A stretch of DNA of 61,237 bases from Nitrospirota bacterium (GTDB taxonomy: Bacteria; Nitrospirota; Nitrospiria; SBBL01; JAADHI01). Below the pieces are notes generated by a model that was not told the DNA's origin, searched no databases, and worked only from the letters and a program-made list of their open reading frames with translations. Shown here in pieces: positions 53,267 through 55,396 of this stretch. Position 1 is the first letter of the stretch. Each line of letters begins with the position of its first letter. The DNA lies in contig JAJDBV010000075.1 in NCBI GenBank assembly GCA_029261165.1, forward strand, positions 1 through 61,237, read 5' to 3'. The position numbers and the translations under genes were made by a program.

Positions 53267-55396
53267 ATGAAACTGAAAAAAGAGTTGGGTTTTTGGGGGG
53301 TACTCCTCGGTATTATTCTAATTTTTGCCTCAAATACATCGGCGGTACTTGGTGCGGACTGGAGTGAGGTGAATCCCTCTCCAACAGTAGAAGATCTGGA
53401 AGGAGTGACTTTTGGAGATGAACGTATCGTCGCTGTAGGAGATAATGGAACGATTTTGACGAGTCTGGACGGGGTGATCTGGGATTCCTCTGACGCCGCA
53501 ACGAATAAAGAGCTGAGGGGCGTGGCCTGGAGTGGTAGTCAATTCGCCGCCGTGGGAAATAAAGGAACGATTGTGACACGTCTTTCCAGTGAGGTCGCCT
53601 GGACACCGCGCAACTCGAATACCAGCCATAAGCTGAGAGGAGTGACCTCCTGGGGCGACGGCCATTTTGTCGCGGTAGGGAATTTTGGAACGATAGTGAC
53701 AAGTACAACCGGTGAGACTTGGATTGTGGTCAACGCGATTCCGACAGGTGAAGACCTCAATGGAGTGACTGCTGGAAATGATCATATCGTCGCAGTGGGA
53801 GATAATGGAACAATTTTGACGAGTTCGGACGGTGCGGACTGGAATTCTCCAGACTCCGATACCCATCGAGACCTGGAAGACGTGGCCTGGAGTGGCATGC
53901 ATTTTGTTGCCGTGGGGAATGAAGGAACGATTGTGACGAGTCCGTCTGGTGAGGTCTGGACATCGCAAGGTTCTGTGACCAATCAAAGGTTTAAAGCGGT
54001 GACTTGGGGCGGCACGCAGTTTGTCGCTGTGGGGGACGAAGGGGCAATTTTTACGAGCCCGGATGGTCTGGTCTGGACATCGCAAGATTCTGGAACGAAT
54101 AAAGATTTGGAAGGAGTGACCTGGGATGGGACACAGTTTGTCGCCGTGGGGGGAGCTGGAACGATTTTGACGCGCCTGGTTCGTGGCCCTGATATTGTGG
54201 TTATCGACGCTGTTGATCCGGTGAGTGACCTGCAGATCCTTTTTGGGAAGGTCACTATAGATTTTACATCGGACAAGGCCATTACGATTGCCAATACTGG
54301 TAATGCCGACCTGGTCATCGGCACGATCGCTTTGGACGACCCGCTTGAGGCTCCATTCAGCATCATAGATGACAACGCTTGCTCGGGGAGGACGCTTATT
54401 CCAGCGGAGATCTGTACACTGACGGTGAAATTTGCACCGACTGATACGGGTGTTTTCACTGACAGCTTTGGCATCCCATCGAATGATGCGGATGAGGATC
54501 CTGTCATCGTCAATGTAAGTGGGGAGGGTGTGGGGGATGTGGTGTCCGACATCACGGTCACCGACTCCGTCGGCTTGATCGATGATCTCACGATTCTATT
54601 TGGGGATATTACTGTGGGGAATCAAGAGGACCAGACCCTCACGATTTCTAATGACGGCAGTGACGATCTTGCCATCGGAGCGATCGCTTTGGTTGGGCCA
54701 TTCAGTATCGTGGATGACCTTTGCTCCAATCATACCCTTGCACCTGGAGAAACCTGTACACTGACGGTGCGTTTTGAACCGGATGATCCGGGTCCTTTCA
54801 ACGGTACTTTCGATATCCCATCGAATGATCCGGATGAAGAAACTGTGACCATCAGCGTTAGTGGAACCGGTCTTCCTGAGGGGGTGGGGGGGAACAATCC
54901 GCCGTCCGCACCGCTACTCCTCTTCCCCGCCAACGGGCAGACCCACTTGGGGAGTACCGTTACTTTACGTTGGTTGCCGAGTCTTGATCCTGATGGAGAC
55001 ACGATTACCTATACTGTTTCCATCTGTGAAAACCCTGATTTTACCGGCGTGGATTGTGGCCCGACCGTGGTAGCCTTTCTTGGGAAACCTGCCGTCTTTT
55101 TTGCCACCCTAGGAAGTTCTGGCGCCGGGCTGTTATTGTTCGGATTTGTCTTTGTCGGTGGTGTGCAAGGCAGAAAGAGGGTCGCATTGCTGATTGCCAT
55201 GATCATTACAACAGGGATGCTCTTGACCGCATGCAGCAGTGGAAGCGGAGGTGGTGGCGCGGGCGCCCCGGCCGGAGTGACGCATACCGTTTCCAATCTG
55301 AACCCAGGGACAACCTTCCACTGGAAGGTCACCGCGGATGATGGAAATGGGGGGACGACTGACAGCGCAACTGGGAGTTTCACCACAGCACCCTAA
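53267..55396 (+). CDS. Secreted propeller/ASH/FN3 protein with an internal membrane hairpin and lipobox
   Basis: A 709-residue protein. The signal peptide spans about 1-29. Seven repeats (43-304) of the form LxGVTWxGxxFVAVGxxGTIxTSxDGxxW suggest a seven-bladed YCF48-like propeller. Two ASH-type (choice-of-anchor D) beta domains follow, about 306-425 and 426-540. A fibronectin-III-like domain starts at about 543 but is broken at residue 602 by a cassette: hydrophobic helix (609-633), GRKR loop, second hydrophobic helix, LTAC with Cys656, then a Ser/Gly linker. The domain resumes with VTHTVSNLNPGTTFHWKV. ATG 53267 follows GGAGG and is chosen over the longer AT-rich extension. Function is unknown, probably a surface protein. 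Confidence 0.85.
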   Translation: MKLKKELGFWGVLLGIILIFASNTSAVLGADWSEVNPSPTVEDLEGVTFGDERIVAVGDNGTILTSLDGVIWDSSDAATNKELRGVAWSGSQFAAVGNKGTIVTRLSSEVAWTPRNSNTSHKLRGVTSWGDGHFVAVGNFGTIVTSTTGETWIVVNAIPTGEDLNGVTAGNDHIVAVGDNGTILTSSDGADWNSPDSDTHRDLEDVAWSGMHFVAVGNEGTIVTSPSGEVWTSQGSVTNQRFKAVTWGGTQFVAVGDEGAIFTSPDGLVWTSQDSGTNKDLEGVTWDGTQFVAVGGAGTILTRLVRGPDIVVIDAVDPVSDLQILFGKVTIDFTSDKAITIANTGNADLVIGTIALDDPLEAPFSIIDDNACSGRTLIPAEICTLTVKFAPTDTGVFTDSFGIPSNDADEDPVIVNVSGEGVGDVVSDITVTDSVGLIDDLTILFGDITVGNQEDQTLTISNDGSDDLAIGAIALVGPFSIVDDLCSNHTLAPGETCTLTVRFEPDDPGPFNGTFDIPSNDPDEETVTISVSGTGLPEGVGGNNPPSAPLLLFPANGQTHLGSTVTLRWLPSLDPDGDTITYTVSICENPDFTGVDCGPTVVAFLGKPAVFFATLGSSGAGLLLFGFVFVGGVQGRKRVALLIAMIITTGMLLTACSSGSGGGGAGAPAGVTHTVSNLNPGTTFHWKVTADDGNGGTTDSATGSFTTAP

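Follow-up and report, generated by a model that had tools for sequence, protein, structure and literature searches.

The analysed window comprised 61,237 nt of a Nitrospirota bacterium (contig JAJDBV010000075.1, assembly GCA_029261165.1). On its forward strand, window:53267-55393 encodes an exported protein of 709 amino acids that starts with the ATG at 53267. The features of this protein are listed in Table 1. The propeller-like passenger gave a weak match to DUF6242. The C-terminal FN3 domain of the protein is split by an insert at about residues 603–670, in which two hydrophobic segments, the first of them a helix, flank a GRKR loop and are followed by the lipobox LTAC and a linker. The window also contains a reading frame of 1433 amino acids, whose large product has an ordinary lipoprotein-like signal at its N-terminus (MAHYRLQQLKFARSSWATSLFIALLALGLLGC) with which the internal lipobox can naturally be compared.

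Table 1. Parts of the 709-residue protein, with position in the window, strand and basis of assignment
N-terminal Sec signal peptide MKLKKELGFWGVLLGIILIFASNTSAVLGA, which would export the passenger	53267..53356	+	sequence reading, hydrophobic peak; predicted cleavage site
Beta-propeller-like passenger	53357..54190	+	sequence reading; 7 repeats of ~41 aa each, FVAVG..GTI.TS
Two choice-of-anchor D / ASPM-SPD-2-Hydin Ig-like domains, outer limits approximate	54196..54875	+	Pfam PF22544 and NCBIfam NF012200, two stretches each
Split FN3, N-terminal half, residues 543–603	54893..55075	+	profiles A1/A2, Pfam fn3 on joined halves, AlphaFold2
Hairpin helix 1, residues about 610–632	55094..55162	+	hydropathy and conservation in 64 homologues
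Basic loop VQGRKR, residues 633–638, predicted cytoplasmic	55163..55180	+	K/R-rich and acid-poor among 64 homologues
Helix 2, residues 639–655, lipoprotein-signal-like h-region ending in LTA	55181..55231	+	uncharged run before Cys in 64/64
Cys656, codon TGC, predicted lipidated residue and LspA cleavage site	55232-55234	+	Cys invariant
Ser/Gly linker after Cys, residues 657–670	55235..55276	+	sequence reading; counts of the +2 residue
Split FN3, C-terminal half, residues 671–709, to the protein end	55277..55393	+	Pfam fn3/Pur_ac_phosph_N, AlphaFold2

Interruption of the FN3 domain

The C-terminal domain was compared with the Pfam fn3 model (cut-off 25). With the insert included, the score was 25.7 bits and the best match was the C-half, which alone scored 17.8 bits. 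When the two halves were joined without the insert, fn3 (PF00041) scored 33.6 bits (E 4.5e-8) in a single match spanning the join. The proposal of the initial annotation that a hairpin with an internal lipobox lies inside an FN3 domain was confirmed. Of the insert limits given there (603–667), the start was correct and the end was moved to about 670. Homologous FN3 domains free of the insert occur in related genomes, for example at loci L066 and L065.

The structure was predicted by AlphaFold2 with 64 homologues. Both halves were modelled as one FN3 fold with a pLDDT of 94–98 (about 95), consistent with the earlier suggestion that the halves could pair. In the N-half, the pLDDT was 94–98 over the first 50 residues and 80 over the next ten, beside the insert. 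The hairpin itself was of low confidence, and the chain was modelled uncut. In a Foldseek comparison of the model with the PDB, nearly all matches were FN3 domains, with a target-normalised TM of up to 0.71.

Recurrence and conservation of the hairpin

The window and 36 loci were scanned in all six frames for an internal hairpin with a lipobox, and only members of this FN3-hairpin family matched. Eight cassettes were combined into a profile, which detected full-length copies in about 30 of the 296 genomes sampled, and no genome had more than eight; this profile sampling covered Nitrospirota genomes, and a second sample from the phylum contained further carriers. An all-species scan by exact short peptides gave two relatives, both named Nitrospira or Nitrospirae. 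Plasmid copies of the module were searched for and none was found. In total, 64 full-length FN3-type copies were fetched and aligned, corresponding to 54 effective sequences at 60% identity.

The Cys was present in 64/64 copies. Because the Cys is invariant and the scan matched that family only, the layout is not due to chance. The residue at -1 was S, A or G in 63/64 copies (S48/A12/G3), the residue at -3 was mostly L/F/V/A/I, and the residue at +2 was Gly in 52/64 and Asp in 2/64. The hairpin loop had at least three K/R in 62/64 homologues and no D/E in 60/64, in agreement with the positive-inside loop of the initial annotation. The protein ended 50–73 residues past the Cys in all 64 copies. 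Helix 1 carried the family signature [YF]-A-G...G-x-G-L-L-x-F-G, with [YF]612 at 80%, A613 at 83%, G614 at 70% and G626 at 87% in the 64 homologues. Conservation this unusual points to helices that pack tightly or to a further protease that recognises helix 1.

A Sec-type signal was present in most homologous ORFs with an intact start. The passengers varied and included M6 peptidase, GDSL lipase, LamG-type lectin, right-handed beta-helix, SBBP and DUF3466 proteins. Recurrence on unrelated passengers indicates that the module is a portable C-terminal device and not a quirk of one protein. The initial annotation had proposed a search for the cassette within FN3 domains of unrelated proteins and had taken its absence from any other protein as evidence against the reading; 64 copies were found.

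Module genes were found in tandem, four at L094:3992-15809 and three at L091:660-9334, and in pairs at L119:3998-8689, L078:2263-4862 and L079:3998-12886. Those of L078 and L119 apparently lie among polysaccharide-synthesis genes. The arrays suggest local duplication of anchored surface proteins. Two further copies, L107:2715-3513 and L121:2875-3497, are broken over two overlapping reading frames, owing to a frameshift or an assembly error.

The internal signal was compared with 23 N-terminal lipoprotein-like signals from the same loci. The uncharged run ahead of the Cys was 13–20 residues (median 17) in the 64 internal copies and 13–21 residues (median 16) in the N-terminal signals, which bears out the reading of the second helix as a lipoprotein signal. 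The mature chain of the N-terminal group often starts with Cys-Gly-Gly, as the internal copies do. The internal signal thus shares with an ordinary Lgt/LspA signal a basic n-region, an h-region, the motif [LVIFA]-x-[SAG]-C and a Gly-rich mature start. It has the lipobox of a lipoprotein, with an invariant Cys and a small residue at -1, but lies mid-protein (Cys 656/709) instead of at the precursor N-terminus, where it follows an exported domain and is joined to the helix ahead of it. Two members, L006:4408-6375 and L114:1448-4486, carry a lipoprotein-like signal at the N-terminus in addition to the internal lipobox. These proteins might be lipidated twice; a second anchor is not strictly needed there, which counts against the anchoring reading proposed below.

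The hairpin could also be a plain two-helix membrane anchor, in which the chain stays uncut, the FN3 domain folds over the intact hairpin and the Cys has another role or none. A hairpin alone is enough to anchor a protein, and in the AlphaFold2 model the FN3 domain forms with the hairpin looping out of it. We consider this rather unlikely, since it leaves unexplained the invariant Cys with its small -1 residue, the fixed spacing of 13–20 residues between loop and Cys and the Gly-rich sequence that follows. All of these traits are common to N-terminal lipoprotein-like signals.

An internal translation start, from which the C-terminal piece would be made as a small lipoprotein in its own right, was also considered. 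In the window, the loop codons AGAAAGAGGG look like a ribosome site just ahead of a TTG, but this purine-rich stretch is explained by Lys/Arg codons. Among the 64 homologues, no Met is conserved within the loop or directly behind it, and the product would usually be without a basic n-region. An internal start is very improbable.

Relation to known anchoring and sorting systems

According to the initial annotation, no sorting signal with this layout had been described. This did not hold, because NCBIfam NF058595 (invert_tail, 'lipo-invert putative C-terminal anchoring domain') already describes a related domain. NF058595 and the FN3-type module have in common a helix, a basic loop, a second helix, a lipobox Cys and a short C-terminal tail, and both occur on exported proteins. 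The window protein matched NF058595 with 22 bits (E 1.6e-4), below the cut-off of 37. The model matched 61/64 FN3-type copies at E ≤ 0.01, mostly below the cut-off, and a few sibling copies passed it with 37.2–42.8 bits. At a loose threshold, weak matches were found in all control genomes and none at E ≤ 1e-6; such weak matches would be expected of a lipoprotein-signal-like profile.

While the FN3-type module mostly falls below the cut-off, members of NF058595 with at least 42 bits are mainly Ig-like-wrapped and come from genomes of another taxonomic family of the same class. The strongest members (55–69 bits) were located in one such family. Ig-type copies consist of an N-half ending in ...TTLTITTNGG, the hairpin, the Cys and then TPAGTSTVSVTATSGS...LTLTVTR, and the Cys was invariant in 9/9. 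The hairpin profiles of the FN3 and Ig types were related according to hhalign (probability 94.3, E 1e-7). The AlphaFold2 model of the Ig-type form was poor (pLDDT 55), and the split of the Ig-like domain rests there on sequence reading. In both forms, the sequence places the hairpin within a beta-sandwich that is completed by strands downstream of the Cys, with strong backing from AlphaFold2 for the FN3 form and weak backing for the Ig form; this may be a shared trait, although the NCBIfam model itself does not state it. At the Ig-type loci (L128-L134, L136 and L137), several copies are on proteins with HAF-like propeller repeats. A literature search found no published account of the lipo-invert domain or of an internal lipobox.

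Other systems were also compared. By its name, the NCBIfam model midcut-by-XrtH (NF033207) presumably denotes a sorting or cleavage site inside a chain. Its match to the 709-residue protein was at chance level and lay elsewhere in the chain (11 bits, cut-off 45), and the hairpin shares no sequence with it. Helix 1 was rejected as a known C-terminal sorting signal, as no NCBIfam model matched it at cut-off. GAIN and SEA domains are self-cleaved, and their two chains are kept together by a split beta-rich domain. Unlike these self-cutting domains, the FN3 module would be cut by LspA in the membrane, so the analogy is functional only.

MYXO-CTERM is likewise a C-terminal tag on exported proteins, with an invariant Cys thought to be lipidated, a helix and a basic cluster (PMC11980579). 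Its Cys lies ahead of a single helix, the topology is inverted relative to lipoproteins, and cleavage is performed by the CPBP protease myxosortase (PMC11980579). In the hairpin module, by contrast, the Cys follows the second helix, which would restore normal lipoprotein topology. The MYXO-CTERM profile TIGR03901 (cut-off 20 bits) gave no match in the window protein and at most 10.7 bits in the relatives.

Proposed lipid anchoring through the split domain

We slightly favour the interpretation that the hairpin and the FN3 domain that it divides form a portable module for C-terminal membrane anchoring, with Lgt and LspA acting on an internal lipobox. The N-terminal signal peptide would export the passenger and the first FN3 half. 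Helix 1 would then stop transfer in the out-to-in direction, leaving the basic loop in the cytoplasm, and helix 2 would return from in to out, oriented like any ordinary lipoprotein signal, its basic n-region inside and its lipobox outside. Since the N-terminal domain is exported, this order of crossings would offer the lipobox to Lgt/LspA as in a normal lipoprotein; the second helix would thus give a C-terminal signal the orientation that these generic enzymes need. The general Lgt would lipidate Cys656 and LspA would cut before it. The last FN3 strands would become a lipidated tail completing the domain begun by the N-terminal chain, and if this pairing persists after the cut, a non-covalent link near its C-terminus would connect the passenger to a lipid anchor. 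Exported proteins of many Nitrospirota are probably cut mid-chain in this way and held to the membrane by lipid through two domain halves.

An anchoring function agrees with the label that NCBIfam gave independently to the hairpin, a putative anchoring domain. The genome itself encodes one Lgt, one LspA, LolA and LolC/E. A dedicated duplicate LspA was considered and rejected: this genome and the listed carriers have one copy each, and second copies occurred mostly in other genomes.

An LspA cut alone would leave both helices on the N-terminal chain, and the lipid would therefore be partly redundant as an anchor. With both helices in place, the passenger could neither reach the outer membrane nor be shed, unless the hairpin is removed. 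Anchoring therefore fits better than shedding, the other function suggested in the initial annotation, unless helix 1 is also cut.

Dual processing would remove this redundancy. Helix 1 and the basic loop would then form a tripartite sorting signal, made up of signature, helix and basic cluster and cut near [YF]-A-G by a putative intramembrane protease, in addition to the Lgt/LspA cut at the Cys. The hairpin would be discarded and the passenger, attached to the lipidated tail through FN3 pairing alone, could be carried with that tail to the outer membrane by Lol. Dual processing as a whole is unlikely. It is consistent with the conservation of helix 1 beyond the need of mere stop-transfer, with the Lol components of the genome and with the predominance of Gly at +2; with Asp in so few copies there is no general Lol-avoidance residue. 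However, helix 1 scored below the cut-off of every sorting-signal model, its conserved Gly could serve helix-helix packing, and no obvious partner protease was seen beside clustered copies when the neighbours were read by eye.

A wider proposal is a phylum-wide route to two-chain lipoproteins, which we regard as tentative. It would start from the mid-chain Lgt/LspA cut, probably with a second cut near helix 1 by a putative intramembrane protease. The passenger would then stay attached through beta-sandwich complementation alone, bound to a lipidated C-terminal fragment that takes it to its membrane.

If lipid anchoring through the split FN3 domain is correct, lipoprotein maturation would not be limited to N-termini. 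With its single helix in inverted topology, MYXO-CTERM depends on a dedicated protease (PMC11980579), whereas here general enzymes would provide a C-terminal lipid anchor. The second helix would let the universal Lgt/LspA work on a C-terminal site, and the split domain would hold the cut product together, which would add a sorting principle. The module would also offer a naturally split FN3 domain, and the predicted location of dozens of exported Nitrospirota enzymes and lectins would change.
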